From positions 1 to 63,218 of IMG/VR virus record IMGVR_UViG_3300010354_000088: a stretch of DNA of 63,218 bases; one strand, written 5' to 3'. The position numbers were made by a program, and so were the translations under genes. This stretch comes from a virus. Position 1 is the stretch's first letter. Each line of letters opens with the position of its first letter. The notes beneath the pieces are model-generated. The model searched no databases, was not told where the DNA came from, and worked only from the letters and a program-made list of their open reading frames with translations. Below, one piece after another: positions 7,753-38,072 of this stretch.

Positions 7753-10700
7753 TTATTTTTTCGGCTTGCCAGTAGAAAGATTACCAGTAAGAACCTGACT
7801 TGTTTTATATAATCCAAACGCCTTTTCAGCCGCTTTATCCATCTGATCTACATCCAAACTACATGAAGCAGCTATAAACTCAGCATATTTACCAGCCTGA
7901 GTTATAGCAAAGAAAGGCTCTTTAGCTTTACTGTAGTATTCATTAGGAGAATATCCGCTAATAAGGTCTAACATACTGTAATTCATAGACTTACCTATTG
8001 GACTGCTCATTAATGATCTCCAGTATTGATTTTGATTTTCGTCATCATTATTAAACAAGGCCGGGAGAATAGCCAAAAACATAGATGAAATGGCAGCATC
8101 ATGCAATACTCTGGAGATATTCATTTTGCGAATATCTTTTTGCTTTTTCCACATATCAATAAGGCCATCATATTCAACTCCTTGAAATGTTTTTCTAGCC
8201 TCACGATAGATACCCATTACTGACTGAATAAGTCCTTCCATGTATTCTCCTTCAAAAACCACGTTTTTCTTAGTAACATTATCAATAGTTACATCTTTAA
8301 TAATGTAGTCTCCAATAGCAGAACTTTCATACCCTTCTTTATAAAGGTTTTGGGCTTTATCAAAAAGGTATTTACTAAACATAGTAAACATAGTTCCAAT
8401 AGAATGAGCATCCAAAGTAAGGGCTGTAGCATCGTCATAAGCACCGCCTGTAATAAACTTATCGGTAATTGTTTTTACAGAATCACGCAAACGGTTATCA
8501 AATGCCCTTGGAAGTTTAGCGTCAACAGACACGTCTCCGTCATAAACACCTTCATTTTGCATGTTTTTAAGAAGCTCTACTTTAAGAAGTTTGCCGTCTT
8601 CAGTCATTTTACCTTCTTTATAGATACGAGCATCTTTAGTCTCATCATAAACCAAATTGCCTTCTTTATCTAAACTATAAGCATCAAGAACACCTTTTTT
8701 GTTCATGTGAGCCATCATAGAAAGAGTTCTGATCAGATAATCACCTGCAAACTGACCCATATAAAGCATTCTGTCACTAAACAAATACTTCTTAGTTTTA
8801 AAGTGACGCTCATTATTAAGCAAGTTAGATCTATCCATACCAGCCATTTTATACTGGAATGCAAGTGCAATAGCAAGTTTAGGATTAGTTGAATATAATG
8901 CAATTGCCTTATTGACATCTCCTAATCCATAGAAGTTTTTAGCTCCAGCAATAGAGTTACTTACAGCAAAAGATTGTAAGGTAAGAGTGTTAGTCATTAA
9001 GTTCTTAAAGTCAGCAAGTATGTTTCCTCCAAGAACCCCTACAGAAGTAGCAGCACCAGTCATTCTGATCATATCGTCATACTTGACATCTACTACTTTA
9101 GATCCGGTATTAACTTTTAATCCTCCCTTCATTCTTTCACGCTGACCTAATACATTAAACTTAGCCATTTTACGCATGTACTCACGAAGGTTAGTTAATC
9201 TACCTTCTGTAGATTGATCGCTATGTTTTGATTCATAGTTATGCATCAATGTCTGAGCAGCATAATAAACAGCATTGGTTTTATCTACCTCTTGCTTTTG
9301 GTAATGGTTCATCATATAGTAAGCCATTACTACTTCAAGGTTTTTTTCTACCTGATTTTCATTGGCTTCAATACTTGATTTTATTTCTTGTTCAGTAGAA
9401 CCAAATACCTTAATAGCTCCATTATCAATAAACAAACCTATTTTACTCATTCGATCAACAGATCCAAGATAACTATCACCAAGCTGATTACTGAAAATAT
9501 CCATAAAATCAGTTCCACCTTGCTTAGCTGCATCATTTACATATTCAAAGAAGTTATTTGAATTTGAGTATTTAGAAGCCCACTGAGAAAGACCTTTACG
9601 CCAATCTTTACTGAATATCTTTTCTGAAGCACGACGCTGCATAATAGGAACCATTCCATCTTTCCAATTTGCATCATATTGATTTTCAGCATCTTCTCTC
9701 TTCATTCCACTATTTACCTTTTTAGTAATAATAGCTTCTTTAAGAGTTTCTACAATATAATCACCTAATGCAACTTCTTCTTTAGATATCTCATATTTTT
9801 TAAGAGCTTCTATAGTTCTAGGGTTTTTACTATTATGAATGTAATAAGTGTTTACATCATAAGTGTTACCAAGATTATCAGTAGCTTTTTGTTTGATAAA
9901 CAATCTATCAAATCTCTTATATCCAACATCTGTAAGACTTACAGTAGTACCTCCACCAATAACTCCATTTAGGCCATTAACATATTTTTTATTAATGTCA
10001 GAAATTAATGCATTCATCTTTTTCATGTGGGCCATATAGCGGTTTTTACCCGTCTCTATAGCACTCATGATATCAGTACGATACATATCAAATACCGGAT
10101 TTCCGATATTATAGTTAAGCAAACTATATTTACCTAATGAGTCAATGTCAGTTAATTTTTCTATTGATTTCTGACCTTTTGTTTTAATTTGGAACAAAGC
10201 ATCAGATAGATATTTCATTTCTTCATTGTTAACTATCTTGCCTTCGTCGTTCTTGTAATATCTCTTAATTTCATTGATACGATTAATAATTACACGTTCA
10301 ACGTCAGCAGAGAATATATCATGACCATGTGCCTTAGTCTGTATTCTTGATATTATATCTTCATATTTATCAATTAATTGACTAGGGATTTCATTATTAT
10401 CTTCTGCTTGTTTAAAATATCTTTCTTTCAAATCATGATATGCAGAAAGAAGAGATTTTACATAGTTAACTTCAGGAGCTTTAAATGATTCTGGATTATC
10501 AACAAGAGCTTTTAGTTCAGGACTCATAATGTCATAAACAACACGACTCTTGAGTAAATATTCCATCTCTTTAAGATAATCATGGAATGCAATGTCGTAA
10601 CTCTCAGAATGAAAGCCATCTGGCTTGATTACAGACATCTTTTCAAATACAATAGAAGGATCTTTTGCTTTCATTGACATAGCCAAAAGCATAAGATTAA

Positions 10701-13700
10701 ACTTCCTCATACCTTCTTGAGTCTTGAGAAGACTGAATTTATTTTCATAAATCTTAGTAGGATCTATCTTAGATATAAAATCTGCAAGATATTCTACATT
10801 GCCAGAAGGAGTAAGTCTTTGATTAAGATAAGCAGTAGTCATATCCATAAGAGATACATATTTAATACCATCTCTTTCAGAAACTACCACAAAAGGATCA
10901 AATGTTTTTGTGTCAAATAAACTTGAATTAAATCCAGAATCAGACAATAAACTAATCTTATCATTAGGATTAATAGCAAACTTACGTTTAATCCATCCTT
11001 TGTTAGATTCAATGTTTTTGTCAAATTGAGGATCAGCACCCATTAGGTAGTCTCTAAACTGACCTTTTATTTTAGATTCGTATTCACCACGCTTAGATAT
11101 AATTTCACGAGCTATGTCTTTGATTTGATCTCTATTGTTAAGATTTTCAAGTTCATATACTTTTCCATTTGATACAAATCTGTAATTACCATGGTTATTA
11201 TATGAATAAGACATACCAGTAAAAATAGCGTTAGAAAGCTGATTTACTGCATTTTCATTATTTACATCATTAGTAGCTTGACGTACATCTGTTCGTGCCA
11301 TAGCAGAAACAAGATCTACGTTGTCGTTTACTTTATCAACTTTAAATCCAACACCATAATATGCTTTTAATTGGTCTTCGTTAGGAGTACCTTTTTCTTC
11401 ATTTGCTTTAGAAAATTCAGCATCAGTGTTAAATACTCTAGCCATTTGATTCTCTAAGTATGTGTCTTTAAGAGCAATTTCAAACATTGAATCGCCTTCA
11501 AGATACACAGAGCTTACAGACATAATTTCATCAAATACACTTTCCATTTCAGGAGTTCTTTGAATATTAGCTCCCGCAGTTGAAAAGAAGAAATTTTTAA
11601 CTGCACTTACAAATTCACGCCAAACATCTTTAATACCCATCTTAGCTACTTCAGGATTCATAGCCGGAATAGTCATAAGGTGCTGTTGGAAAGATTTATG
11701 TGTAAATGCCTCAGTTACAAACTCTCTTGTGTTCTTAAATGGATATTCAAAGTCTTTGTTTGCAGATTTAGACTTAGTGTATTCATAAAGCTTAGTTATA
11801 TATTGAGCATATGTTCTTTCATCATTTGTAAGCTTTTGATTTTTTTCAAAACGCTGCAATACATCGGCTGTTATGCCATGATTCATTTCATGAAGAACAA
11901 ATCTTTCAGTTTTAACGCTATTGTCTGCTTCATCTGTATTAATAAATATATCATATTTAATAACTCTTCCTTCAGAATCTTTAACAGGTCTCCACACACC
12001 ACCCATTTTAGTTGGGCGGTCTTTCATGCTAAATAAACCAGGATTTTGAATTTCAGATAAAAACTCAATGTTGCCTATACTAAGTTTTTTACTAGAATAT
12101 GAATCAAGCATAGCTTTTGCAAGCAAAGCATGAGGCATGTAAAGACTATTTTCAGATACATGTCTTAATACATCTACCTGATCATTCATTCCTAAATAGT
12201 CAATATTAAGCTGACGATTATAGTTGCTTATATCGCTTCCATTAGCAGAATCAATAAATCTCTTTCTTTCTGCAAAATCAATTATATCGGCAGAAGAAAA
12301 CTCTGCATCAGCAGATACACCTTCAGAATGATTAGCATTAGCAGATTGAAGATTTTTAATAGAAAGACTAAATCCAGTCTTTCCTTCTCTTTGGAATTTA
12401 GTAAGCTCTACAATCTGTCCATTTTTAAGATAATAGAAACCATTATTGTATTTTCTACCTACATCAGTAAACAGATTTGTAATTTCATTAGGATTAATAC
12501 TTGTACGGCCAGTATTCATCAAGTCCTTAATCCTATTCATAGATACAATATGCAAAGACTTATGCATGTTGTCTATTCCAAATACTTCTTGAGCTACAGA
12601 GTTTTTAGTCCATCCTGAGAGCATATTAGACACTTTATTGTCTATACGCACATATCTATAAACAGGATTTTCTTTAGAAGCACCTTGCACAATTTCAGGA
12701 TCTTCAATTTTAACCTTCTTGAATGCTCCAAGATATTTCTTTGTAGAATACGCTTCAGTAAATTCTGCTGATTTTCCAGTAATATGACCTGAAATAGGTG
12801 TCCAAGCTTGAACGTAATCCGGGAAATCAGCTATATCTTTTGCATTTTGATTTACTGACGTTCTGTAAATAGGAATCAATCCTCCTTTATAAACAATTCT
12901 TCCTTCCTTGTCCTGAACTTCATTAAGTTGAAAGTCATTTTTAGTATTGGAATCTTTAGTTATACTAGGAAGATTGCCTAGCATATGAACAGCTAATCTA
13001 TCAGCATTATTACCACCATATCTCATGGCTATATTGTCTGCATAGATATTACTAGCTTTAGGATCAAGTCTTTTGTCAGTATTAAGCCATACGTTCATTT
13101 CATTTAAGAAATCATCGTATTGTACTAAATTGTCTTTATTTACAATAGACATTACAGAACCTTTTCTTACTATACCGCCGTCTGTAATAATACTATATAC
13201 AGAAAGACGTTTACCAAGATCAATGCCAGTAATATTATAAATAGCTTGTAAATCATCTTTTAACTTACCTACATAAGATTCATCAGCTCTGTTAAGATCT
13301 CTAAGATTTATGTATTCATCCTGATTTTCTTTAACCTCAACCGTAACATCTTTAAGGAAAGAATTAGTAATATTTCCTTCAGAATCAACAAGAGTTCCTG
13401 GCGTAAGCTCATATTTTCCAGGATTAGTTTGCATATCCCGGATAAGGTCATGAGTGGTAATAATAAATTCAAGTTGACCTGTAGGAGTCCCTACATTTTC
13501 AACTTCATTAGGATTAATTCTGTTTTTAAGACCTACAACATCACCATATTTCTCAAGATACATAGTAGAAATTACTTTCCATCTTGCAGACATAGCACTG
13601 CCATACTCGTCTTTATTATAGAATCGTGGTTTTCTTGCTTGATTTAAAAATGCTTTATCAAGATTTCTAAAGACTGGATTTTGAACCGTCTGAACCTTTT

Positions 13701-16700
13701 GCATTTTATTGTCAAAATCTACCCAAGCATTAATAAAAGATTTAATGTTAGGTAGTTTGTTAATGAGCTTTTCTGTATTGACAAAGCTTTTAAACAAATC
13801 ATTTTCACGTTTAGCAAGATCGTACTCAGAAGGAATATCTATTTCACGTTCTATTCCGGAAATCATAGCTTTCTGACTTCTCTTTTCATAGAATCTGATA
13901 TATTCATCAGGACGAACTAATTCATTAAGATTTTCAAGATAATCGTAGGTATCCCAATCACCGAACTTAACACCTTGATTAACAGAAAATACTTTAGCTA
14001 ACTTAGAAAGTCCTCTTCCAAGAGCCATTACATCTGCTACATGACGAGCTTTTTGAGAATAGTCATTAAGCCATTCTATTGTTCTGTTAAGATCGTATTC
14101 TATTGATTCATCAAGTTCAAGTTCTTCTTTTGCAGAAGATTCACTAGTTATTTTAATACCTCCATTTTCAGCTATTTCAGCCATTTCTTGATTTTCAGCT
14201 GCTTTATCAGCTTCACTTTTCAAGACTTTTCTTGGAATGTATCTTGATTTAGTGCCAAATACCTTAGAAATATTATCAACTTCTTCTAAGAAAGATTTAA
14301 TAATTTCATTTCTTTTCTTAACGTCAGTTGTAATTTTTAGAGTCTCATTAAGCTCAAAAATTCGTGCTTTATAAGTCTCAGCCATGTTCATCCAAGAAGT
14401 AGCTACTTTTTGAGAATTTCTTGATTTTTCATCTATATCTCGTCCGGCTTTAATATCATTAATAATATTAGAAACCTTGTAATCAGATAAAAATTCAACA
14501 ATTTCCATGTCTGATACACCAGCAAATTTCATTGCCATAGCAGCACTTGCTGTTGTTGGGTCAATTCTAAGTCTTCCCAAAAGATCAAGTTTACCATTAT
14601 CCACGGCAGCTTGAAGAAGACCAGCCAATGAATCCATAGTTAAGTGACCACTATCAACTCCAGTAACAGGATCTATATTAAAGAATCTTCTGTAATTTTT
14701 ACCAAGAAGATTAATGTTAAAATGATCTCCTTTAACCTTGCTAAATGCATGGTATATGTGCGAATAAACTTTAATACCATTAGCAAATATACCGGGAGTC
14801 TCAACACCTGCATTAAATGACTCAAACTGACGAGTATTAGTAACTACGTCATTTAAGAATTTAACAGCCTGAATTGAAGATACATTGCCTTTTTTGAGCA
14901 TGTTTTCTCTTATTTGCTCATATACGGATTCAAATTGATCTGTACTTACAGGACTTGTTACTGATGTAAGGTTATCAACATCATTATAATGGTCTATTGC
15001 ATTTTTAATAACTACGTTTACAGGATTTTTTTGATAAATACTTTCATATTCACCTTCTTCAATTTTACCAGAAGAAGATCCCATAAGAAGATTTTCTCCA
15101 TAGTTAGGTAAATCCAAATGATATACATGCAATTCGTCAATGTCATAGTCAGATCCATCTATAATGTTCTTTTTAGAAGAAACAAGAATAGTGTTTGAAA
15201 TGTCATTGTCAAATGCTACAATTTTACCTTTAAATCCAGACGAAGACTTAGAAGCAGGAACACGGTTAATAAAAGCATCTCTTGTTAAAATAAATGCTTC
15301 CATGTAATTAGCCATAGAATCTGCAAACTGATATCTGTCTTTAATTTCTCCATTTTTAGAAAGTTCAATTTTATTGTCTTTCATTAAAACGTCAGAAGCT
15401 AAAGATCCTTCAAGCTGATTCAAAAGACCAGCAAGAGCCATTCTTCTGTCTTCAGGACTAGATCCAAGATCTTCATACATTACTTCAGATCCATCTCTGA
15501 GTCTTAATGTAACAAAATCATCGGCATCAAACTTCTTGTAGTAAAATTCACTATTTGGATTATCGTCAAGACCAAACTTTCTGAAATTAGTAAATGACAT
15601 TACTACTTCATACGGTTCAATTTTACCACCTGATTGCTTTATGTCAGATACAATTTTATTTCTTTGCTCTGGAGTAATATCAGGAGTTTTAACCATTGTC
15701 ATTACACCATCTACATCTGCAAAGTTTTCAGCTATCTGTTCAGGAGTAAGAATGTCTTTTAAATAATCAAAAGACTCAACATCTACAAACTGATCTCCTG
15801 ATTTAACATAAGCCTTCATTGCACGAAGACCTTCATTGTCTTTTGTAAATGAATTAGCTGCGTCAGGATATTTCTGAATGAATTTGTCATATTGAGCAAG
15901 TGTCATTCTTTTCCCTGCTTTATAAGGCCCGATATCAGTAGTAAGAGTAAGCATCTCTACTAATTCTCCAGGATACTGTACGTTTGAACTTGCTGATTTA
16001 ATTTCAGGTTTAATACCCTTGTTAAATTCATTAGCAAAAGCAATACGAACAGGATCTGTAAGACCAGGAAGATTAGTGCCAAAACGAGGATCATTTAAGA
16101 TCTCCATTCGATTACCTACCGCTACTTTAGTTCTGTCAGCTACAAATGACTTAACATCAGTAGAAGATTCTGTAGATTTAGATATATCGTCACTTACTCT
16201 TGATACATTTTCAACCATAGCAGACATACTTTCTGCTGTACGATTGTAGTTATTTTGACCTACAAACAATGTTGTAGATGCCTGAGTAGGATTACTTGCC
16301 TTTTGATCTCTTGCTTCTTTGTTCAAGTCAAGGACATACAATCTTGTGTTGTAGTCCATATCAAAAGTTGATTCTTCTCCATATCTTTCTGCATTAATAT
16401 CAATAACTGAAGCACCATTTATTGTTTTAGCTACAGTAGTAGGCATAAGACGAGATAAATATGTATCCCGTATATCTATAATTCTTCCATCTTCAGTAGA
16501 AACTTGACGTGCAGAACCGCCTTCAAACATCCAATCAACAAGCTTTGCATCGTCCATTCCAAACTCTTCAAGCTTATTCCAAAGAGTGATAGACTGTCCG
16601 TTATCTATAAAGTTAACATGACTCATCATCTTTCTTTCTATGTCCATAATCTCCCTACTGTTCTTTCTGTAAGGCTTTAAGTTCATAGTAGAAGACTTCA

Positions 16701-19700
16701 TCAAGATACGCTGTCCTGTTACAATATCATTTTGGTTATGGATTTCTTTTTTATGACCAAAAGCATTTTTTACAATGTTCTGACCCAAAGAAAACTGCTG
16801 AATAATACCATCAATACCAACCTGAAACTCAAGACCATCTACTCTAGTTGTGCTGTCTGTTTTAGATCCACCCAATAGCTTAGCAATACGATTTATTGAT
16901 TTCATATTAGAATCGTTGTAAATAGCAGCTTTTTGAGTAGCCTTTACTCCAATACCATACGGTTTGATAGTGTAATGCAATCCAGGAGTAGTAATCTGAT
17001 AAGAACGAATTGCGTATGAAGAATAAGAAGGATATTGATTTTTATCTCCAATAGTTAAATCTGTAATATGATTTCCATGGTTAGCAAAAGCAAGAACATA
17101 ACTTTCATAGAATGGATTGTATTCTTTAAAAGTATAATTTTCTTTATCGTTATATCTTCTATTTAAATAATAATTGTCAAGATAATTTTGCTTTTCATTC
17201 TCAGACAATGCAGTCCATTCTTCTGGAGTAAATCTTTTTACAACCTTTACAAATCCAGCTTTTTCAATGTTATTTCCATCAAAATTCTCTCCTTCAAACG
17301 TAAAGAATGGCTTAGTTCTTTGATCTACTTTAACCTGATTTTTAAACAAGCTACTTACATAAGAATCTATTCGTCTAGAAAATGCATTTTTAAAGATCTT
17401 TTTAAGCTCTTTATTTACATTTTCATTATTGATCTTATTAGTACCTGTTGAATTTGATTCAAAAAGAACTGAGTCAATATCTAATCCATTATCAGCAAAT
17501 ACTTTTTGGATTGCTTTGTAATTATCCAAAAGGAAAATAGGATCCATAGTATTGCCAGTTACAGCATCTGTAGTCTTGTAGCGAATAGAGTTTCCGGCAA
17601 ATACACGCTTACCGAACTCTTTCAATACATTTCCTTGAGAATCTTTGTAATCAACAAACTTGTAATGCTTGTATTCAGAAACAGATGAAGACTTGTTTAA
17701 AAAGTCCATAAATGCTTCTTTAACAGTAGCATTACTGTTTATTACTTCGTCTATAAAATCCTGAACTTCTTGTGGATTATCTAAAAGATCAAGTTTATTA
17801 CGATTGTATTTAGATAAGAAACCTTCTTTTCCCGTTTCAAGTCTTCCGGTAAGAGCAAGAGATATAGTAGGATCAGCAAAAAATGCCTCTAAAGGAGTTC
17901 CTGCTGATTGATTTATAAATCTCTGAAATTCAGATACAAATGTATCTAGCGACTGAACCTGATCTCTTCTAAGCTTTTGAAGTTCTCGTGTAAATGAATA
18001 AGAGAAATAATCCCAGTTAGTCTGAGCTGATGCCTTTTGATTTTTAGATACATTACCATCTTTAATGATAATAGGACTGGCATTACTTTTCTTATCTACA
18101 CTATATTGAATATAGAAGATTTTAGAAGAGTCTCCGGTTACAGGATGCGGTACAGCATATTGATAATATGTACCATATCTTGATGTTCCAGATCCATCTT
18201 TTTTAGCACTTGCAAGACCTTCAATATAGTTGGCAATGTTACTATTAATAATTTCAGTAGGAGAATATTGGCTTACTCCTTTTCCTACAGAAGCTCTTTT
18301 AGCTCCATCGCCTACATACTGACCTCTTACTACATATTCTTGAGATCCTCCATTATAAAGAGGATTGTAAGCAAATTGATATGTAAGGTTATAATATGGG
18401 TTATTTTCAAAAGCAGCTTCGCCAAACTGACTTACACGATTTTGAAAATCATTTATAAATACATCAGATATCTTAGTGTTAAGGTCTGATTCAGTATAAG
18501 GAGAAGATATACGATCTACAAGGAAACTTGAATTTTGAATTGTATATTTCCTTTCTCCACTTGGCGATGTAAAATAATTACTTACAGAAGTTGATCTGTT
18601 AAATGATTCTACAATAGCAAGATCCTGACGATACTTCCATTCCATAATAGGAAGCTGCAACTCAGAAGAGCCATCTGTATTTTCATTATCTATGTTAACG
18701 GTGTCAAAATCAAGGTCTTTATTTTCAAAGCCTATTTTAAGCTTAGAAAGACCATCGTGAAGCATTCTTGCTAATGTAGATGAATCTACTTCATAAGAAA
18801 GGGGTTCACTATAAATACCATTTATTTGAGTCTTATTTGCAAGTCCATACAAATATGTATTGATAGTCTTACCGCTAATATCATATTTAGATATACCTAA
18901 AAACTCAAGAATATCAGAAACATTCTTTTTATTACCTCCAAAATCAGAAGGATCTGCAAACTCATACATAAACTCACCAGCAGTAGCTGTACGCTTAATA
19001 ATCTGTTTTTCTCCACCACCTTTATTGGTAATGTAGATTCCAGAATCATCTATGCGATAGCCATCTTGAGGAGTCTTGCTTTGCTTCAGATTTTGTATTT
19101 CACCTCTTTCCTGACGAATACGAAGATCATTAATCTCATGCTCTCTTAAAGACATAGATTTAGGCTCTCCATTTTCAACGTAATCTACAAGGTAAATATC
19201 ACTTACTCGATTTACCTTATTGCCTTTAATAGTTGCTACTCCATCAAATATGTCAAATAATGAAGTGGTCATATTCTTGGCAATTCTGTCCTTGATATCA
19301 GAAACGGTATTTCTCTTAGGACGGAACACTCGTATAGAACCATCAATAGGTATATACAAGTCATTTTGATAGCTAATTTGATTAGCTGATCCAGAAACAG
19401 CAAAGAACTCGTTAAGAGCGTAGTTTGCAAAGTTTCTCTTTATGTTAAATAACTCTTCAAGAGAAACACCTTCCGGAAGTACAACATCTCTATATTGAGC
19501 ATCAGAATTAATTCTTTCGAGAATTTTATCTGGATTTTTAATCCAGTCATAATAAGAGTATTCTCCTTGAGTGGAAGGATCATAAAATCCAAACTCACCA
19601 GGAAAGCTATCTCTAAAGAAAGCGTCGTATATAGTGCTCAATATATTATATTGGTTACTAGCCTCATTGCCTTCTTTAGGCTGAGTAGCTTCCATAGCAC

Positions 19701-22700
19701 GCTCTATAGATCTTCTAAAACTGTCAAAGTTATTCTCTCCTTTTGGAAGGAATCCTACATTTTTAGTAATAGAGTTAAATGCACTAATAACATTTTCAGG
19801 AGTAATAGGGGTTTTAGAACGTCTTGAAATGATATTACCACTTTCATCTTTAGAAAACTCACGATAGTCAAGAGAATTTAAAATAAGCCTCATTTGACTA
19901 GAATACCCTTTTACAGGGTTACGGCCTTCTCTTGTTGCAGAAGTAGATATAGATGATTGAGTAGTAAGTTCTGATACATCTAAAGTTCCAATATTTTCAT
20001 CAAGATCCGTATCTCCAAATTTATTACGAGCTTCTGCTGTAGTAAGGAGAATGTTTTGAGGAAATATCTTTTTAATGATAGGATCAAATACTTCCCTGAA
20101 ATCAGAATCTTTTCCTTTTGCCAATTGAGCGTATATATAAGCCCTTCTTACATCTTCAGATTTACTTGTAACTACGTCATTCCATGTAAGCTCATCCGGA
20201 GTTTTGTATGTAGGAATGGCTTCAGTAGCATTAGGATCAGATACGTTATAAACACTGTCTTTGATAGATTCGTACTTATTCATAAAAGCAGAATAAGACA
20301 TTTCTATAGCTTGAGGTATGTCACTTAATCCATCTTGAAAATAGAAAGGATCAAAAGACCTTGAAAGACGTGATTTAGTTACAATTTCTTTAGAAATAGT
20401 ATTTACAATGCCAGCTACGTTTTGTTCATTGCCAAATACTGTGCTAAGCTTTGAAATACCATTACTAGCTTTTTTATCTCTTGAAAGCTGCTTATTTGTA
20501 ACAAAATTCAAAGGATCTGCATCTGTTGATGGCTCAGACTCTTTTTGGTTAAACTCACTTAAATCATCAAATAGAGAATCTTCTTGTGCAGAAGAAAACT
20601 CATGAGAAGGCATATTATTAGTTCCAGGAGCTTCACCAGTCTTTTCAGTAGCAGATGGCCCTTTTACTTCATTAGATGATACTACAATTTGAGGGAAGTT
20701 TACATTCTTAACATCAGTAAACAACTGATCGTGAGAATTTACTGCAAATTTGCTTGATCCAGTAGTATTAGAAGAAGGGAAAGATCTGATTTTTACAGGA
20801 GAAGTATTTTCATCATAGTTTTTTTCAATGATGTCCTGAATACGCTGCATTCTTTCATAAGTAGCTTTAAGATCAATAGTCTTTGTGTTAGGATCAAAAA
20901 CCTGAACTTCATAGTTATTATATGACTTACCTCCAGCTACATCAGTTCTTTTATTAATTGAATAAAGGCTATTTCCTGTATTGTATTGATCAAAGAAATA
21001 TCTATTAGAAGTAATGAATCTATTTATGTCTTCATAGAATCCATTATTTCTAAAAGTATCATTGTCTTCAAGTCTCTTGGTATTACCAAAGTAATCTTTT
21101 ACAAATCCAACAGCATCTGCTTTTGACACTTGAGTGGATTTAATCTTAATCATTCCAACATTAGAGTTGTTTGAATTAGGATTAAGAGTATAATAGATAT
21201 AATATCCAGGTTCAAAAACTCTGTTACCATTCTGATCAGTGTATTTAGGTATTCTACTAGCTCCTAAACCTTGTTTACTTGGATCGTAAATTAAATAAGG
21301 ATCAGAGAAATAAACAGTTTTACCTTCCATCTCATGTGGATACCAACCATTTACTTTTTGTTTAGGTACAGATATTTGTTCTTCAACAGACTCAACCCCT
21401 TCTTTAGTAACAGTCTTTTTAGTCTTAGTAATTTCACTAATCTTCATCTCACGACCTTTTTCAGGAACGTAATTACCATTAGTGACTTTGTTAATTGCAA
21501 TGCTACCTAAATCAACAACTTGATTATCTCCTGATCCCGAAAGCTTTCTATAAGCTTCAACACGATCAACAAATCGCATTCTATTGATATTAAGCTCAGA
21601 TAACTTATCAGCATTTAATCCTTGAGAAGAATATAATCTATTAAAATAATCGGCAGGTGACTCTGTAGCAGGAACAGATGTTACATCCAATCCTCTGTAA
21701 GCTTCGTCAAATCCATATTCATGAGAGAATATAAAATAGCGACCATTTACAAGTGTAGGATTCTCAGTTCCAAAGAGCTCATTCTTAATCTTAGGATTTA
21801 CCCCTTCAAGATCTAATACATGGTAAATTCCATTTTGATATCTTTCAGAACTTCCTTCAAGAGCAAGATTATTGATATATATCTTACGCAGATAGTTGTT
21901 TATAGCTCTACCCTGACCTGAATTAGCAGCTATAGAATAAATATACTTTTGGAAGAAATTAGTCTTTTCTTTAACATATTTATCTTGAATAGCAGCATCA
22001 GAATGCATCTTTACAAACAAACTGCCTACTCGTGCATTTGCCAATGAATTTTGGTTAAATACAGCTTTTGTAAGAGTTTCATATTCTTTGCCCTGAGAAG
22101 GAGTATTTTCATCAGCAATAGACGTAATTTGAATACCACCGTCTTTAATTCCAGAAAGAATAGGATCATTCTGCTTAAAATCTTGAGGTTTAATCTCAAA
22201 AGTATTTACACCGTCCGTTACAGTTAAAAGTACATCTCCTGAGTTTTTAGCCTTTTTAATACCGCTTACAGTAAGCTGATTGCCGTCAGGCCCCATCATA
22301 GACTTACCAAAGTATTGATCAACAAATCCACCTTGACTATCTCCATCCCAATAGTCTTCATAAGAATCAATAGGAACAGGCTCAAAAACAACATTTCCAG
22401 GATTACTGCCTGAATATTGAGTTTGCTGGTTTACATTATTAGCAGCTTGACTTGCAGTAGGAACAGGAGGCTCTTGAACAGCAGGAGCTGGTTCTTTTAC
22501 TTCTCTTGTTAAATTAACCTGTTGTGTGGTATGAGATAAAATCTCATTAATAAGCTCTGGCTGTCTATTTGCATATTCAGTATAAGCTTCTTTAGACTTT
22601 TCTACATAATCACTCTTATCAGTAAATAATGTATCTACTTTTTGAGATACAACCTCAGATTCAGGTACTGTAGTAATAATATCAAGATAAGACTCAGCTC

Positions 22701-25700
22701 TTGAAGAAGCAGTAAGGAGAACCTTATGATAATCTGTAATATCAAAAATGTCTCCTTTTTTAATATTTACATATACACGTTCAAACTGAAATCCTTTGGC
22801 TGTTGTTTTATCGCCAAGCATTGTTCTTACAGAACCTTCAAGAACAGACTTGTCAATACCTGAACTAGACAATGTATTAATAAGCTCTAATCTATCAGCA
22901 TCTGTAGCTACAATAAATACAGTTTTTCCTGTAACGCCGTCTTTCTTTAAATCAGAAACAAAACTGTCAAGCTGCTCTTTTTGTGCTTTAAATTCATTTC
23001 CACGAAGTTTAACACCTTTTGTAGCATATCCACTTTCAGACTCAGAATATTGAGTAGAAGGATAAAGAATTTGAGCCTCTTTACCACCTTCAACGTAAGG
23101 CTCTCTAAATGCTTGCTGAATACGAACAATATCATAAACGCCTGAACGATGAACATCTGTAACAGGAGTTGTACGCTGAGATGTCAATCCAGGAGGAGTA
23201 AATGTTTCTCCACTTGATATTTGACTTTCATCAATAAGCTGAATAACCTTAAATCCTTTTTCTAAAGCTTGTTTATTAATAGTCTCTACTTGCTCTATTG
23301 TAAGTTCAGAAGCCTCGTCAATTACAAGAATACGGTCTTTAGTAGTATCAGTTAACTTATCTACTTTACCATTTAATACTTGTTCAAGAGATACAGATTC
23401 TTTATTTTCTGCATTTATTGATATAGACTCAATAGAGCTTTTTAGGTTTTCTACCTGACGAGAATGAGCTGCTGTAAATACAATATTAGAAAACTTAAAA
23501 GTAGTTGATTCTGCTTTTTTAACGGAATGATATATATCCATTATAGCAGGAAGCATAACTTTTGTCTTACCTACTCCGGCAAATCCAAGAACAGAAAGTG
23601 TATTTTCAAGGAAAGGAACAAGCTTAGCTGTTTTTGTTGAAACCTTAGCACCTGAAATAGAAGGATCCATTAAGAATGCAACTGATTCATAAACAGCTTT
23701 TTGCTGTTCAAAAGAAAGAGCTACATGATTAGGATTTTTAGTCTTAGAATACTCGTTCCAAGCATTGTATCTTTCCAAGAAAGATTTTGGAGATAAACGC
23801 TTGATATTGGTAATATTTTGAATAAATGTAGTATATGCATGAGCATTTAAACTAATATTATCAGATGCCAAACTAGACTCAAATTGTTGTACATCTCCGT
23901 AATACCAATATCTGTTATTTTCGTCTTTTACTTCTTTAGCTTTGGAGTTTACAGCTCCAAGAGCAAGAGGTTCAAGTTCAGTTCCTTTTTTGCCTTTAGC
24001 AAAAGTATTAGTAATATCTTTTACTAATCTTTCGTAAAGACCATTACCTTCTTTAGAATTAAAGATATCGTGTAGTTTACTTTCCGCAGATACTATATGT
24101 CCATAACTCTTATAAACAAGAGATGCAATTTCATCTTTTTTCTTATAATACTCTTCTTTTTCAGCATCAGAAGCTTCTCCACGGTTTAATTTATCATTAA
24201 GATCTTTTGCTCTATCTGCAACAGCATTTTGCTCATTTAAAGTATCAACGTATTTAATTAAATCGTCATTTGCAGACTGCAAAGCATCTTTAAAATCTTT
24301 AGAATAACCGCCAGTAATTATAGTAAGATGGTCAATAGTTCTTTGAGCTATATTATTTCTAAGATCAGCATCTCTTAATACAAAATTAGCATCAAACAAC
24401 TGTCTTGCTACAGAAGATATATTTAAAGCTTTGAATTTAAGCTTTATTGCTTTATTGAAAGACTCTACAAGTTTATTGTGTATGCTTCCTTTATTAGTAG
24501 GATCAAGATCAGATTTTAAAGGAGTAATGTTTTCATTAAGGCCGCTTACCTGATTATCAAGTTTACTATAAACAGTATCATTTATAGCAAGAATTTCAGC
24601 GTTAGATGCAATGTTATTTATAAGTTCATCAAGCATTGCAGCATCATTGGGATTAGAAAAATCGGATTGCTCCATTTTACTAAGAATATCCTCAAATGAT
24701 ACAAAACGAGGTTCTTCAGCAGTACCTCTGTTTACTGAAATATATGCATTTTCAAGAATTTGTCGTGGAGTAAGATTTCCTTTTTCAAATACCGAATTAG
24801 CATCAGCAGACATTTGTTCGTTAATAGAACCTAATTCTCTTAATGAATTAATTTTTCCTTTATATAAAGAATCAAATTCTGCTTTACTTTCACCAGGAAC
24901 GCTAAGAGCTACATCATTAATTGTAGCAGTTTCTTCATCATAATCAACTTTATATTTATCTGAAATCTCTTTCATTAATTGAGATTCCACTTCAGAATAT
25001 TTATTCTGAACTTCGTTAAGCATATTTTCAAATGCTGTCTTACCTAAAGCATCAACACCTACACGAAGATTACTATTATGAAGATTTTGTATTCTACCAA
25101 TTAATTCCGGAGTTACTCCTGCTTGCATATCAGCAAGAATAGATGTAAGCTCATTTGTATTTTCACCTCTTTGTTGTGCTATTACAGCAGGATCAATAAC
25201 CTTTTTTAAAGATTCATTTAATGCATCAACTGTATCAGAACCTACAGTAATAGCTTTATCCCCAAATTCTGTCTTAAATGAACTTACTTTAGGATTGAAA
25301 ATGTTAAATAAAGGATTTCCATCTTTATCTTTTGCTGAAAAATAATGAGCAGTAAGCATTCCGCTACGAACAGCTTTAGCTTCTACCTTGCTAATTCTTT
25401 TTTGCTTAGTAGCGTTTTCAACACGAACAGTTTCTTCAAAATCAGCTATAAGCTCAGTCTTTTTAGAAAGTTCTTTTTCAAGCTGAACACGCTCATTATC
25501 AGTAATTGTAGTGTCTTTAAGACGTTCTTGAATTTCATTTCTACGAACAATTATCTCAACAGCCTCTTTAGCAACTTGTGTAGGATCAATTACTTTATCA
25601 AGTAGTGCAGAATAAGATTTATCAAAATAATCTTTTAAATAACGTTTACCCTTGTCTTTAGCATTTTGATGCCATTGCTTAATGCCGGATTGTTCATAAA

Positions 25701-27825
25701 CACTAATGTAGCTTTCTAAAGACTTTCTTGCACTTGCGTAGTTTACATCATTTAATGATGCAGGACGCTCACCTGTAGCTGGATCTACGTCTTCAGGTTT
25801 ATATTCTTCTAAAGTAAGAGAATTGATGTTTTTATCACCAAACTCTCCAGCTTTATGCATGTTTTCAATAACATTGAAAATCTTATCTTGCTTACCAGTC
25901 ATTACATAGTCTGAAAGACTTCTGTTCTTCATAAGAAGTTCAGGATTCTTTCTTCCAGCTACATATTGATCAATACCGCCATGTAATCCCATTACAAAAC
26001 CAGTAAGGAAAGAATGACCAATACCTTCGGTAAGCTTTTCTCCTAATCCCTTTTTAGGATCATTGTATAGACCTTGACCTGTTTGAGTGTAAATTTCATC
26101 AGCATCAGGATTATCTTGTAAATACAAATAATCGCTAGTTGATGTAATAGCATTATTTACAATATGCAATGCTGCAAATTCACCCATTGAAATAATAGGA
26201 GAAGAAACAATAGGAGTTACATTTCCTGTTTTTTTAGCAAGATTGCTGATTGTCTTTAATACAGAAAACTTATTTGTACTTGCAAGTGCATTTGCACTTA
26301 ACTGAGATGCTTCTTTTCCTGTATTTTTTACAGTATTAGCTAATGTCTCTTTAAATATAGGAGCAAATGATTTTTGTACTACATTTTTAGCTTCTGCATT
26401 AGCAAATACACGTTGCCATAAAACACCTTCTCCTGGAGCAAATAATTTAGAAAATCTGCCCATTAACCCAAGTGTAGCAACCAAAGAAACTCCATATACA
26501 GCCGATGCTCTATCTTCGCTTACTCCAGCTTCTTTAGCTGCCTGGTTCATACCGTCAGCCATCATCAAACCAAAAAACACATGGTTTCCTGTTGAAGCTA
26601 TTCTTGCACCAATTTGTTGTGCAGCTATTTCAGAAGCTCCAGTAGCCTCAGCAATAGAAAGACCAGCAGGCATACTTACTCTTTTTAACAAAGCAGCTTG
26701 AGCAATAAGACCAACAAGAGATCCTGCTGTTCGCCATCCTTGCCCGTCAATACCTTGCAACTGTCTTTCAGACTCTTTAAAATAAAGCTGAGAAGACATA
26801 TTTTGCATTTGATTGCCTTTATCTTTTAACCAAGAAGGCATTACATTGGGAAGGTTAAGATTTTGAAATGCAGCATTACCTGTTGCCATTGACAACAGTG
26901 CATTAGAATTAGACATTGCTGATCCAAATGTACTCGGTACATTAAAAATCAAACTATTTAAACCTTCACCAAAAAAATCTGTAAGCCAGTTATTTCTAAT
27001 GCTTCTTGGCCCCCATAATGAACGTACAGCCGATCCTTTTAATCTATCTTCATTAGAAGCTGATTTCCAAAATGGAGTGCCAACCTCGCCTGTAATATCT
27101 CCCGTTTGATCATAATCTAATACAAGAGTTGGAACTTTAGGCATTGTTAAATAACCAGAAAATAAAGCATCTGTAAAATTTAAATCTTTAACAGCTTCTT
27201 TTTTCCATTCATCCATGGTAATCATCTTACCAAGATTAGGATCATAAACTTTACCTAAATCTTCAGCTACTTGTTCTTGAGATTTTATAGCCATAAGTTG
27301 ACCATAAGAATCAAAAGCATATCCTTTTGGTAAATAAACTTGATTTTGCTTTACAGTTTGAAATTCTTCAAATTTTCTTCCCATAGGAAGTTCTCCTTGA
27401 ATACTGTAACGCTGAGGGCGAGGATCTTCTAATTGCTTATCATTCCACGCATGATAAAGGTCTTCTTCTTTCTTTTCTTTAAAAGAATTGTAATCATTAG
27501 AAACAGTTTTCCATTGCTGTTCAAATAAATTGCGATCTCCTTTATATACATCATCTTTATAGATGTTCCAAGACTGCTCTTTATCTAAAGTAACAGTAAC
27601 AGGGCTTAATCCTTGTTTTTGACGATCATTATTTTCTTGATTTGAATATGCCCAAATATCTTCATCCTGAAGACCTCTTAACTTCAACCCAAAATAATCT
27701 TTTTTAACTACATCAGCAGCAGCAGGAGGAGCTTCGGGAGTAACAGGTATGTTAGCTACATTAGGCTGATATTTTTGATTTGTTTGATTTTGCGGATTAT
27801 TTGGATTTTGTGGAATAGGAGCCAT
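7753..27825 (-). CDS. Giant virion polyprotein: RNA polymerase, SF1 helicase, zincin peptidase
   Basis: A single 6690-codon frame. A Pro/Asn/Gln-rich N-terminus precedes hydrophobic, amphipathic segments near residues 365-480 and about 550, like membrane-active regions of ejected phage proteins. A P-loop GFAGVGKT lies at 1414-1421 and a Walker B with DEAS at 1503-1506. Motif V-like GFQFERVYV and motif VI-like LLTASSRAE follow near 1670-1700, giving a UvrD/Dda-type superfamily 1 helicase. DYDID at 4226-4230, within IIDGSDYDIDELHVY, matches the DxDxD metal-binding motif of the crAss-like phage virion RNA polymerase studied in phi14:2. HEMNHG at 5312-5317, with a downstream Glu in TREFVTEAF, is a gluzincin-type metallopeptidase motif. 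The last about 120 residues include another hydrophobic segment. Its position after two cargo-type genes fits an ejected protein that transcribes early genes. In relatives these functions are usually on separate proteins. Whether the chain is processed is unknown. Confidence 0.85.
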   Translation of the reverse strand: MAPIPQNPNNPQNQTNQKYQPNVANIPVTPEAPPAAADVVKKDYFGLKLRGLQDEDIWAYSNQENNDRQKQGLSPVTVTLDKEQSWNIYKDDVYKGDRNLFEQQWKTVSNDYNSFKEKKEEDLYHAWNDKQLEDPRPQRYSIQGELPMGRKFEEFQTVKQNQVYLPKGYAFDSYGQLMAIKSQEQVAEDLGKVYDPNLGKMITMDEWKKEAVKDLNFTDALFSGYLTMPKVPTLVLDYDQTGDITGEVGTPFWKSASNEDRLKGSAVRSLWGPRSIRNNWLTDFFGEGLNSLIFNVPSTFGSAMSNSNALLSMATGNAAFQNLNLPNVMPSWLKDKGNQMQNMSSQLYFKESERQLQGIDGQGWRTAGSLVGLIAQAALLKRVSMPAGLSIAEATGASEIAAQQIGARIASTGNHVFFGLMMADGMNQAAKEAGVSEDRASAVYGVSLVATLGLMGRFSKLFAPGEGVLWQRVFANAEAKNVVQKSFAPIFKETLANTVKNTGKEASQLSANALASTNKFSVLKTISNLAKKTGNVTPIVSSPIISMGEFAALHIVNNAITSTSDYLYLQDNPDADEIYTQTGQGLYNDPKKGLGEKLTEGIGHSFLTGFVMGLHGGIDQYVAGRKNPELLMKNRSLSDYVMTGKQDKIFNVIENMHKAGEFGDKNINSLTLEEYKPEDVDPATGERPASLNDVNYASARKSLESYISVYEQSGIKQWHQNAKDKGKRYLKDYFDKSYSALLDKVIDPTQVAKEAVEIIVRRNEIQERLKDTTITDNERVQLEKELSKKTELIADFEETVRVENATKQKRISKVEAKAVRSGMLTAHYFSAKDKDGNPLFNIFNPKVSSFKTEFGDKAITVGSDTVDALNESLKKVIDPAVIAQQRGENTNELTSILADMQAGVTPELIGRIQNLHNSNLRVGVDALGKTAFENMLNEVQNKYSEVESQLMKEISDKYKVDYDEETATINDVALSVPGESKAEFDSLYKGKINSLRELGSINEQMSADANSVFEKGNLTPRQILENAYISVNRGTAEEPRFVSFEDILSKMEQSDFSNPNDAAMLDELINNIASNAEILAINDTVYSKLDNQVSGLNENITPLKSDLDPTNKGSIHNKLVESFNKAIKLKFKALNISSVARQLFDANFVLRDADLRNNIAQRTIDHLTIITGGYSKDFKDALQSANDDLIKYVDTLNEQNAVADRAKDLNDKLNRGEASDAEKEEYYKKKDEIASLVYKSYGHIVSAESKLHDIFNSKEGNGLYERLVKDITNTFAKGKKGTELEPLALGAVNSKAKEVKDENNRYWYYGDVQQFESSLASDNISLNAHAYTTFIQNITNIKRLSPKSFLERYNAWNEYSKTKNPNHVALSFEQQKAVYESVAFLMDPSISGAKVSTKTAKLVPFLENTLSVLGFAGVGKTKVMLPAIMDIYHSVKKAESTTFKFSNIVFTAAHSRQVENLKSSIESISINAENKESVSLEQVLNGKVDKLTDTTKDRILVIDEASELTIEQVETINKQALEKGFKVIQLIDESQISSGETFTPPGLTSQRTTPVTDVHRSGVYDIVRIQQAFREPYVEGGKEAQILYPSTQYSESESGYATKGVKLRGNEFKAQKEQLDSFVSDLKKDGVTGKTVFIVATDADRLELINTLSSSGIDKSVLEGSVRTMLGDKTTAKGFQFERVYVNIKKGDIFDITDYHKVLLTASSRAESYLDIITTVPESEVVSQKVDTLFTDKSDYVEKSKEAYTEYANRQPELINEILSHTTQQVNLTREVKEPAPAVQEPPVPTASQAANNVNQQTQYSGSNPGNVVFEPVPIDSYEDYWDGDSQGGFVDQYFGKSMMGPDGNQLTVSGIKKAKNSGDVLLTVTDGVNTFEIKPQDFKQNDPILSGIKDGGIQITSIADENTPSQGKEYETLTKAVFNQNSLANARVGSLFVKMHSDAAIQDKYVKEKTNFFQKYIYSIAANSGQGRAINNYLRKIYINNLALEGSSERYQNGIYHVLDLEGVNPKIKNELFGTENPTLVNGRYFIFSHEYGFDEAYRGLDVTSVPATESPADYFNRLYSSQGLNADKLSELNINRMRFVDRVEAYRKLSGSGDNQVVDLGSIAINKVTNGNYVPEKGREMKISEITKTKKTVTKEGVESVEEQISVPKQKVNGWYPHEMEGKTVYFSDPYLIYDPSKQGLGASRIPKYTDQNGNRVFEPGYYIYYTLNPNSNNSNVGMIKIKSTQVSKADAVGFVKDYFGNTKRLEDNDTFRNNGFYEDINRFITSNRYFFDQYNTGNSLYSINKRTDVAGGKSYNNYEVQVFDPNTKTIDLKATYERMQRIQDIIEKNYDENTSPVKIRSFPSSNTTGSSKFAVNSHDQLFTDVKNVNFPQIVVSSNEVKGPSATEKTGEAPGTNNMPSHEFSSAQEDSLFDDLSEFNQKESEPSTDADPLNFVTNKQLSRDKKASNGISKLSTVFGNEQNVAGIVNTISKEIVTKSRLSRSFDPFYFQDGLSDIPQAIEMSYSAFMNKYESIKDSVYNVSDPNATEAIPTYKTPDELTWNDVVTSKSEDVRRAYIYAQLAKGKDSDFREVFDPIIKKIFPQNILLTTAEARNKFGDTDLDENIGTLDVSELTTQSSISTSATREGRNPVKGYSSQMRLILNSLDYREFSKDESGNIISRRSKTPITPENVISAFNSITKNVGFLPKGENNFDSFRRSIERAMEATQPKEGNEASNQYNILSTIYDAFFRDSFPGEFGFYDPSTQGEYSYYDWIKNPDKILERINSDAQYRDVVLPEGVSLEELFNIKRNFANYALNEFFAVSGSANQISYQNDLYIPIDGSIRVFRPKRNTVSDIKDRIAKNMTTSLFDIFDGVATIKGNKVNRVSDIYLVDYVENGEPKSMSLREHEINDLRIRQERGEIQNLKQSKTPQDGYRIDDSGIYITNKGGGEKQIIKRTATAGEFMYEFADPSDFGGNKKNVSDILEFLGISKYDISGKTINTYLYGLANKTQINGIYSEPLSYEVDSSTLARMLHDGLSKLKIGFENKDLDFDTVNIDNENTDGSSELQLPIMEWKYRQDLAIVESFNRSTSVSNYFTSPSGERKYTIQNSSFLVDRISSPYTESDLNTKISDVFINDFQNRVSQFGEAAFENNPYYNLTYQFAYNPLYNGGSQEYVVRGQYVGDGAKRASVGKGVSQYSPTEIINSNIANYIEGLASAKKDGSGTSRYGTYYQYAVPHPVTGDSSKIFYIQYSVDKKSNASPIIIKDGNVSKNQKASAQTNWDYFSYSFTRELQKLRRDQVQSLDTFVSEFQRFINQSAGTPLEAFFADPTISLALTGRLETGKEGFLSKYNRNKLDLLDNPQEVQDFIDEVINSNATVKEAFMDFLNKSSSVSEYKHYKFVDYKDSQGNVLKEFGKRVFAGNSIRYKTTDAVTGNTMDPIFLLDNYKAIQKVFADNGLDIDSVLFESNSTGTNKINNENVNKELKKIFKNAFSRRIDSYVSSLFKNQVKVDQRTKPFFTFEGENFDGNNIEKAGFVKVVKRFTPEEWTALSENEKQNYLDNYYLNRRYNDKENYTFKEYNPFYESYVLAFANHGNHITDLTIGDKNQYPSYSSYAIRSYQITTPGLHYTIKPYGIGVKATQKAAIYNDSNMKSINRIAKLLGGSKTDSTTRVDGLEFQVGIDGIIQQFSLGQNIVKNAFGHKKEIHNQNDIVTGQRILMKSSTMNLKPYRKNSREIMDIERKMMSHVNFIDNGQSITLWNKLEEFGMDDAKLVDWMFEGGSARQVSTEDGRIIDIRDTYLSRLMPTTVAKTINGASVIDINAERYGEESTFDMDYNTRLYVLDLNKEARDQKASNPTQASTTLFVGQNNYNRTAESMSAMVENVSRVSDDISKSTESSTDVKSFVADRTKVAVGNRMEILNDPRFGTNLPGLTDPVRIAFANEFNKGIKPEIKSASSNVQYPGELVEMLTLTTDIGPYKAGKRMTLAQYDKFIQKYPDAANSFTKDNEGLRAMKAYVKSGDQFVDVESFDYLKDILTPEQIAENFADVDGVMTMVKTPDITPEQRNKIVSDIKQSGGKIEPYEVVMSFTNFRKFGLDDNPNSEFYYKKFDADDFVTLRLRDGSEVMYEDLGSSPEDRRMALAGLLNQLEGSLASDVLMKDNKIELSKNGEIKDRYQFADSMANYMEAFILTRDAFINRVPASKSSSGFKGKIVAFDNDISNTILVSSKKNIIDGSDYDIDELHVYHLDLPNYGENLLMGSSSGKIEEGEYESIYQKNPVNVVIKNAIDHYNDVDNLTSVTSPVSTDQFESVYEQIRENMLKKGNVSSIQAVKFLNDVVTNTRQFESFNAGVETPGIFANGIKVYSHIYHAFSKVKGDHFNINLLGKNYRRFFNIDPVTGVDSGHLTMDSLAGLLQAAVDNGKLDLLGRLRIDPTTASAAMAMKFAGVSDMEIVEFLSDYKVSNIINDIKAGRDIDEKSRNSQKVATSWMNMAETYKARIFELNETLKITTDVKKRNEIIKSFLEEVDNISKVFGTKSRYIPRKVLKSEADKAAENQEMAEIAENGGIKITSESSAKEELELDESIEYDLNRTIEWLNDYSQKARHVADVMALGRGLSKLAKVFSVNQGVKFGDWDTYDYLENLNELVRPDEYIRFYEKRSQKAMISGIEREIDIPSEYDLAKRENDLFKSFVNTEKLINKLPNIKSFINAWVDFDNKMQKVQTVQNPVFRNLDKAFLNQARKPRFYNKDEYGSAMSARWKVISTMYLEKYGDVVGLKNRINPNEVENVGTPTGQLEFIITTHDLIRDMQTNPGKYELTPGTLVDSEGNITNSFLKDVTVEVKENQDEYINLRDLNRADESYVGKLKDDLQAIYNITGIDLGKRLSVYSIITDGGIVRKGSVMSIVNKDNLVQYDDFLNEMNVWLNTDKRLDPKASNIYADNIAMRYGGNNADRLAVHMLGNLPSITKDSNTKNDFQLNEVQDKEGRIVYKGGLIPIYRTSVNQNAKDIADFPDYVQAWTPISGHITGKSAEFTEAYSTKKYLGAFKKVKIEDPEIVQGASKENPVYRYVRIDNKVSNMLSGWTKNSVAQEVFGIDNMHKSLHIVSMNRIKDLMNTGRTSINPNEITNLFTDVGRKYNNGFYYLKNGQIVELTKFQREGKTGFSLSIKNLQSANANHSEGVSADAEFSSADIIDFAERKRFIDSANGSDISNYNRQLNIDYLGMNDQVDVLRHVSENSLYMPHALLAKAMLDSYSSKKLSIGNIEFLSEIQNPGLFSMKDRPTKMGGVWRPVKDSEGRVIKYDIFINTDEADNSVKTERFVLHEMNHGITADVLQRFEKNQKLTNDERTYAQYITKLYEYTKSKSANKDFEYPFKNTREFVTEAFTHKSFQQHLMTIPAMNPEVAKMGIKDVWREFVSAVKNFFFSTAGANIQRTPEMESVFDEIMSVSSVYLEGDSMFEIALKDTYLENQMARVFNTDAEFSKANEEKGTPNEDQLKAYYGVGFKVDKVNDNVDLVSAMARTDVRQATNDVNNENAVNQLSNAIFTGMSYSYNNHGNYRFVSNGKVYELENLNNRDQIKDIAREIISKRGEYESKIKGQFRDYLMGADPQFDKNIESNKGWIKRKFAINPNDKISLLSDSGFNSSLFDTKTFDPFVVVSERDGIKYVSLMDMTTAYLNQRLTPSGNVEYLADFISKIDPTKIYENKFSLLKTQEGMRKFNLMLLAMSMKAKDPSIVFEKMSVIKPDGFHSESYDIAFHDYLKEMEYLLKSRVVYDIMSPELKALVDNPESFKAPEVNYVKSLLSAYHDLKERYFKQAEDNNEIPSQLIDKYEDIISRIQTKAHGHDIFSADVERVIINRINEIKRYYKNDEGKIVNNEEMKYLSDALFQIKTKGQKSIEKLTDIDSLGKYSLLNYNIGNPVFDMYRTDIMSAIETGKNRYMAHMKKMNALISDINKKYVNGLNGVIGGGTTVSLTDVGYKRFDRLFIKQKATDNLGNTYDVNTYYIHNSKNPRTIEALKKYEISKEEVALGDYIVETLKEAIITKKVNSGMKREDAENQYDANWKDGMVPIMQRRASEKIFSKDWRKGLSQWASKYSNSNNFFEYVNDAAKQGGTDFMDIFSNQLGDSYLGSVDRMSKIGLFIDNGAIKVFGSTEQEIKSSIEANENQVEKNLEVVMAYYMMNHYQKQEVDKTNAVYYAAQTLMHNYESKHSDQSTEGRLTNLREYMRKMAKFNVLGQRERMKGGLKVNTGSKVVDVKYDDMIRMTGAATSVGVLGGNILADFKNLMTNTLTLQSFAVSNSIAGAKNFYGLGDVNKAIALYSTNPKLAIALAFQYKMAGMDRSNLLNNERHFKTKKYLFSDRMLYMGQFAGDYLIRTLSMMAHMNKKGVLDAYSLDKEGNLVYDETKDARIYKEGKMTEDGKLLKVELLKNMQNEGVYDGDVSVDAKLPRAFDNRLRDSVKTITDKFITGGAYDDATALTLDAHSIGTMFTMFSKYLFDKAQNLYKEGYESSAIGDYIIKDVTIDNVTKKNVVFEGEYMEGLIQSVMGIYREARKTFQGVEYDGLIDMWKKQKDIRKMNISRVLHDAAISSMFLAILPALFNNDDENQNQYWRSLMSSPIGKSMNYSMLDLISGYSPNEYYSKAKEPFFAITQAGKYAEFIAASCSLDVDQMDKAAEKAFGLYKTSQVLTGNLSTGKPKK

Positions 27826-37252: not shown

Positions 37253-37254
37253 GA

Positions 37255-37710: not shown

Positions 37711-38072
37711 TACATAGGTACGTTATTAGCCGAAGCAGCTATAGCATCAGGATCTAAGTTATTTCTATATGGATTAAAATCACTTACACGATTTGTATCT
37801 CCAATATTTGCCCTTGCATTAAGAAAATCTCTATCATCGCAAGGAATAACAACATCAGACTCAACAACCCTATCTGCCGGAATATCGTATTGGATACCTC
37901 CGTCTAAAATAACTCGATAGTGAAGTATTGATTCTTTTGCTTTGCCACCACATCCGCAACCTACAAGAATATTTACTTTTTCAGTATAACAATACTGCTC
38001 TTGTGGCTTAAAAACCTTACCTTTTATATAGGTAGTCATCACAATAGTGATCATCTTTTCATCTGTTGCCAT
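37710..38072 (-). CDS. Hypothetical virion-region protein
   Basis: A 120-residue protein beginning MATDEKMITIVMTTYIKGKV. The N-terminal 85 residues look like a small beta-barrel with a CGCGG motif near residues 38-42. The C-terminal 40 residues are Asn/Asp/Ala-rich and probably disordered. The CGC could bind a metal or form a disulphide, but no second cysteine pair is close. It lies between the 219- and 151-residue genes of the connector region with an almost direct junction. I infer a small structural or assembly protein without further evidence. Confidence 0.45.
   Translation of the reverse strand: MATDEKMITIVMTTYIKGKVFKPQEQYCYTEKVNILVGCGCGGKAKESILHYRVILDGGIQYDIPADRVVESDVVIPCDDRDFLNARANIGDTNRVSDFNPYRNNLDPDAIAASANNVPM

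Follow-up and report, generated by a model that had tools for sequence, protein, structure and literature searches.

The whole IMG/VR virus record IMGVR_UViG_3300010354_000088 (63,218 bases, referred to as the window) carries one reading frame of 6690 codons. The question raised by this locus is which protein so long a frame encodes, and whether it is really one chain. The first-pass annotation read it as a crAss-type virion RNA polymerase (vRNAP) fused with other ejected proteins. Our analysis agreed with this reading and specified the partners: the ORF very probably encodes a single-chain crassvirus virion transcription cargo, in which gp47, gp50 and gp49 are joined and an SF1 helicase is placed inside the gp47-like part.

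Integrity and conservation of the giant frame

The giant ORF starts with ATG and contains no internal stop over 6690 amino acids, so that the frame was as uninterrupted as annotated.

7753..27825, minus strand: giant ORF, very probably a fused crassvirus cargo/transcription protein; 6690 codons, 754 kDa, in the order gp47-like, gp50/RNA polymerase, gp49-like
8053..8109, minus strand: hydrophobic helix, possibly membrane-crossing (residues 6573-6591; hydropathy scan)

Four motifs had been reported in the chain, GFAGVGKT (P-loop, 1414-1421), DEAS (Walker B, 1503-1506), DYDID (4226-4230) and HEMNH (5312-5316), and all were found at exactly these residues. The mass, previously put at about 740 kDa, was computed as 754 kDa.

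Relatives of the same kind were detected in other viral contigs. The 65-kb contig IMGVR_UViG_3300021602_000008 (G001) encoded a stop-free homologue of 6603 aa (27-32% identical), and scans based on the polymerase motif and on a profile of three sequences added further single-chain giants of 6810 (G003), 6605 (G008), 6663 (G009) and 6685 aa (G010), as well as one fragment and two near-identical copies of G008. The three near-identical records differed by no more than 5 bases over 5529 codons. The six distinct giants (6603-6810 aa) were 17-29% identical and co-linear, and shared a layout with the SF1 P-loop near 1390-1560, GSDYDID near 4170-4680 and HExxH near 5220-5460. The hydrophobic helix was located by hydropathy scan about 100 residues before the C-terminus, at the same place in all six. 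Codon-position GC showed one steady pattern along the whole giant gene, and the chain aligned end to end with the 6603-aa homologue at about 29% identity; thus no frameshift or chimeric join was seen. About 2,000 residues of the chain were without an assigned homologue. A PHROG match to phrog_37402 (7e-6) was also recorded.

At the composition of the giant chain, DxDxD is expected about 2.3 times by chance (three were present), HExxH 0.05 times and GxxxxGK[ST] 0.28 times. The DxDxD string alone therefore proves nothing, and the case rests on conservation. The P-loop, GSDYDID and the HExxH at 5312 were conserved in 6/6 distinct giants, and the remaining two DxDxD strings (2605 and 3037) had no counterparts listed at matching places in the other giants.

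Genome setting

Genes for capsid, ring, muzzle, portal and terminase, present on the same strand as the giant, placed the phage in Crassvirales.

27892..29823, minus strand: 643-aa gene just upstream of the giant, in a crassvirus cargo position (by position only; order as crAss001 gp45-gp47)
29835..32186, minus strand: 783-aa gene in a crassvirus cargo position (by position only)
32748..36611, minus strand: crassvirus muzzle protein (Pfam crAss_MUZ, E 3.4e-57)
36614..38734, minus strand: tail ring proteins 1 and 2 (36614-37252 and 38075-38734; CrAss_Ring_1 3.6e-30, CrAss_Ring_2 6.7e-18)
41564..42997, minus strand: crassvirus major capsid protein (Pfam Crass_capsid, 9.4e-38)
45358..47895, minus strand: portal protein (phrog_6547, 3.6e-78)
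47897..49768, minus strand: terminase large subunit, used for the tree (phrog_6681, 2.5e-89)

The block on the minus strand was ordered as terminase, portal, capsid, rings 1 and 2, muzzle, 783-aa gene, 643-aa gene and giant, and the giant lies at the usual crassvirus cargo locus. No family match was obtained for the 783-aa gene. Three other genes of the window were recorded. A Ferritin/Dps-like protein (32183-32746, minus strand; Pfam Ferritin 9.9e-20) was encoded at an unusual site, the gap between muzzle and cargo genes, and a spore photoproduct lyase-like radical-SAM protein (57346-58221, plus strand; PF20903, 4.5e-21) in the divergent gene block. A tail fibre or head-decoration-like ORF (1-1189, minus strand; phrog_8745, phrog_2647) ran off the contig end, which indicated that the structural block continues past the record.

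The polymerase module

13915..17112, minus strand: predicted two-barrel virion RNA polymerase module of the phi14:2 gp66/gp77 and crAss001 gp50 family (residues 3572-4637; hhalign, AF2, Foldseek)
15136..15150, minus strand: DYDID, predicted catalytic metal-binding motif inside GSDYDIDEL (residues 4226-4230; invariant columns, 72 sequences)

The hhalign comparison of the six giants with 14 reference crAss vRNAPs gave an E-value of 3.2e-25 with a probability of 99.7% over 740 columns (residues 3576-4637). Against 68 IMG/VR vRNAPs the E-value was 2.2e-29, and with the giant chain alone it was 1.1e-9; zero matches were returned by the reversed-profile control. Overall identity to the known vRNAPs was ~15%. 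In the 72-sequence alignment 12 residues were invariant and all were kept in the giant chain (R3607, K3693, K3710, K3800, Q3950, R4188, P4190, G4224, D4226, D4228, D4230 and G4436).

AlphaFold2, run on an alignment including the canonical crAss polymerases, produced a model with pLDDT 73.7 and pTM 0.77, in which a two-barrel fold like that of 6VR4 was predicted, consistent with the double-psi barrels anticipated around residue 4226. The top match of this model in Foldseek against the PDB was 6VR4, the phi14:2 virion RNAP (E 2.9e-13), followed by QDE-1, the single-chain two-barrel RNA-interference polymerase (E 2e-3), and then weakly by cellular beta' chains. In BFVD the named top matches were mostly crAss-like giant proteins. 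The six giants alone yielded no usable model (pLDDT 39.8), and the alignment behind the good model included known vRNAPs, so that model and alignment are not two independent lines of evidence.

The polymerase part had no match in phmmer/hmmsearch against PDB sequences, where 6VR4 was found only by fold comparison, nor in tblastn against 50,697 phage records, and in single-protein scans the viral contigs gave no match to either the polymerase or the junction region. When GTDB genomes were searched with the patterns GSDYDIDELH and DGSDYDID, there was no match for the former, and none of the 22 stretches retrieved with the latter was homologous by HMM; hence no host link was obtained. The profile comparison, the conserved residues and the model supported the assignment of residues ~3572-4637 as a predicted two-barrel crAss-type virion RNA polymerase with the family-invariant residues kept. 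The earlier proposals that DYDID marks a crAss vRNAP and that this polymerase is fused with other predicted ejected proteins were both supported by the profile-profile matches, the GxDxDxD conserved in 72 sequences and the 6VR4-like model.

The gp49-like part and its predicted zincin

11656..11922, minus strand: predicted zincin module with homology to the phi14:2 gp76 N-terminal part (residues 5302-5390; tblastn 1.7e-9, blastp 2e-7)
11878..11892, minus strand: HEMNH (residues 5312-5316), with H5312, E5313 and H5316 invariant in six giants
7792..10149, minus strand: C-terminal part of the gp49/gp76 family (residues 5893-6678; hhalign E 3e-19, 656 columns)

The reversed control for the gp49/gp76 comparison gave no match. 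In the six-way alignment the zincin of G003 was kept as HEIRH. All Pfam matches to zincin families stayed below threshold; several families were hit, each by a single giant. The invariant HExxH and the homology to phi14:2 gp76 suggest that HEMNH belongs to a putative zincin peptidase. Sequence comparison supported residues ~5302-6678 as the counterpart of phi14:2 gp76 and crAss001 gp49, with a predicted HExxH zincin at its front.

The gp47-like part and the SF1 helicase

25867..27006, minus strand: weakly gp47-like N-terminal region (residues 274-653; hhalign E 4.8e-5, probability 68%)
22546..23718, minus strand: predicted SF1 helicase (residues 1370-1760; Pfam AAA_30, invariant columns)
20332..20535, minus strand: region aligned to the gp47 C-terminal zincin, zincin-1 (residues 2431-2498; hhalign E 3.3e-6, all six giants)

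The six giants were compared by hhalign with the crAss001/phi14:2-type gp47 family. Homology was confined to short, weak stretches (274-653 and 2431-2498), and for the zincin-1 region E-values of 2.2e-7 and 6.7e-7 were reached with four relatives carrying HE[AS]xH. This motif was present near 2713-2937 in these four relatives and absent from the giant chain and from G001. Since the giant chain has lost the upstream zincin, proteolysis at each of the two positions is not a requirement. A weak similarity of the N-terminal part to crAss001 gp47 may be proposed.

The helicase region was matched by Pfam AAA_30 above the Pfam cut-off (E 5.5e-9), as was found for 5/6 giants. The columns invariant in the six giants were the SF1 motif positions, with motifs I, II, III, V and VI in order: the P-loop 1414-1421, DEAS 1503-1506, D1532/Q1535 of motif III, R1560, R1574, G1678 of motif V and T1705/S1708/R1709 of motif VI. 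Motif II was altered in G003, with EEGS instead of DEAS. These data supported residues 1370-1760 as a predicted SF1 helicase, in agreement with the first-pass annotation. Since it lies between two gp47-matching stretches, the helicase appears to be embedded in a gp47-like protein, and none of the gp47 proteins examined contained one.

Comparison with crassviruses and other systems

In crAss001, gp45 and gp46 are followed by gp47, beyond which gp49 and gp50 are encoded on the opposite strand; gp45, gp46, gp47, gp49 and gp50 were all identified in its virions by mass spectrometry (PMC10172136). The functional set is the same as in the giant, with gp50 equivalent to the polymerase part, gp49 to the C-terminal part and gp47 weakly similar to the N-terminus, but three genes on two strands correspond to one gene here, and crAss001 gp47 is without the helicase carried by the gp47-like part of the giant. 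In phi14:2, proteins of 1797, about 2180 (2180-2182) and 1421 aa are consecutive on one strand, and the order gp47, polymerase, gp49 is common to phi14:2 and the two-gene crassviruses. The phi14:2 virion RNAP (6VR4; gp77 of KC821624, ‘gp66’ in the literature) resembles the giant in GxDxDxD, the invariant basic residues, the predicted two-barrel fold and the presence of the whole core in one chain. It is a separate protein, whereas the module of the giant comprises residues 3572-4637 of 6690.

The junctions of named genomes were assigned by motif order and length rather than by a profile test of every protein. On this basis, three separate proteins were found in crAss001, phi14:2, Dulem virus 41, cr106_1 and cr128_1; gp47 and polymerase were joined in cr1_1, cr50_1, cr114_1, cr52_1, cr130_1 and Fpv1, and polymerase and gp49 in Carjivirus LMMB, Rudgehvirus and cr107_1. 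The polymerase fusions in named genomes measured 4070, 4272, 4401, 4551, 4774 and 5801 aa. The expectation that the polymerase usually lies on a separate protein therefore held for some crassviruses, but fusions of 4070-5801 aa were common and not exceptional. As in the giant, adjacent cargo proteins are fused in Carjivirus LMMB (4070 aa, annotated ‘RNAP catalytic subunit/RNAP subunit fusion’), cr1_1 (4551), cr50_1 (4774), Fpv1 (4401) and cr130_1 (5801), but each of these seems to have closed a single junction, in contrast to both in the giant. Across 50 additional IMG/VR contigs, some of which read TAG as a sense codon so that the listed frame is shortened, no polymerase ORF exceeded 5339 aa. 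Among the crassviruses examined, both junctions were closed only in the six-member clade. Crassvirus polymerase genes of up to ~6000 aa have been reviewed (PMC10136315); together with the known two-way fusions, this indicated that the giant extends a known trend. The new element is the closure of both junctions within a single chain.

The 4774-aa giant of cr50_1 (8617-22941, annotated ‘DNA helicase’) was the sole other crassvirus giant, among those examined, whose polymerase chain also bears a P-loop helicase of this type (hmmsearch 6e-9), but there it follows the polymerase, at residue ~4275, instead of preceding it. Outside the crassviruses, gp96 of P23-45 (5,002 aa) is a tape measure-virion RNAP fusion (PMC10770324). 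It is a huge injected protein with a two-barrel vRNAP and a metallopeptidase domain, as the giant would be by analogy, but P23-45 is a long-tailed phage, its polymerase is N-terminal and the fusion partner is another one.

Interpretation of the fusion

Homology was established at the sequence level for the helicase, the polymerase and the gp49-like part including its predicted zincin, which follow the same order in six divergent phages, and the joined virion cargo of gp47, gp50 and gp49 is our preferred explanation of the ORF. It has to be weighed against a polyprotein, in which the one chain is cut by its own zincin or by another protease into three proteins before or after packaging, leaving a mature machine of three parts. 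The zincin at 5312 is conserved in 6/6 giants and placed after the polymerase at the gp49-like start, so that cleavage after synthesis is possible, and sister lineages make the same parts separate or partly joined. However, phi14:2 gp76, already separate, bears the same zincin, which therefore did not arise for cutting the fusion, and the polyprotein was regarded as possible but doubtful.

An assembly chimera or readthrough artefact joining three genes could be suspected in a single metagenomic contig from a virus record without a host genome. The same co-linear chain, free of stops, is encoded on five other distinct contigs (17-29% identity), one relative was assembled near-identically in three records and the codon pattern is steady along the gene; virtually no likelihood is left for such an artefact, and the chimera was rejected. 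It is also very improbable that the polymerase of the DYDID part has decayed or been repurposed, with the chain now serving chiefly as a structural protein of ejection. The E after DxDxD in place of the usual K and the identity of ~15% would fit this, but all residues invariant in 72 sequences are retained, including the R, the K and the three Asp, and the residue after DxDxD varies elsewhere too (S in Carjivirus, H in cr130_1).

For the joined cargo, a course of infection can be proposed by analogy with phi14:2 and crAss001. Synthesized late, the giant chain would wait in the cargo zone of the capsid, pass portal and tail in an at least partly unfolded state, together with the DNA or before it, and refold in the host, where it would transcribe early genes ahead of host polymerase use. 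The cargo zone of crAss001 was estimated to hold up to about 5.1 MDa, so that each polymerase-associated protein could be present in six copies (PMC10172136), and six copies of a 754-kDa chain would amount to ~4.5 MDa. The helicase probably acts on incoming DNA, making it accessible to the polymerase, stripping proteins from it or assisting its uptake. The zincin would most likely be a protease of the entry stage that cleaves envelope or host proteins or frees the modules from each other. The fusion itself would set a 1:1:1 stoichiometry and the order of delivery.

To our knowledge, crassvirus gp47 and gp49 are known only as ‘RNAP-associated’. Their natural fusion to the polymerase, kept across deep divergence, provides Rosetta-stone evidence for one 1:1:1 assembly and suggests that gp47, polymerase and gp49 work as one 1:1:1 machine, for which the fusion chain is a construct for testing. 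A helicase riding on an injected polymerase would be a new, testable element of genome entry, and the idea that crassvirus cargo unfolds at ejection would be put to a hard test by a ~750-kDa chain having to traverse portal and tail. A further reading, that the injected 750-kDa molecule is a self-contained entry machine, with helicase and vRNAP in tandem and unwinding, transcription and uptake mechanically coupled, and that it defines a deep crassvirus lineage, is considered unlikely.

Phylogenetic position

In the terminase tree, built without Crevaviridae, Darmviridae and the Zeta and Epsilon groups, the six giant-bearing phages formed their own clade with a support of 100/100. This clade fell apart from Intestiviridae, Steigviridae, Suoliviridae, Fpv1 and Azobacteroides phage, and the terminase was not placed inside the clade of any of these three families. 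The terminase ORF of G010 (1058 aa, contig positions 10869-14045) contained an in-frame, intein-like insert of ~350 residues after query residue 114.
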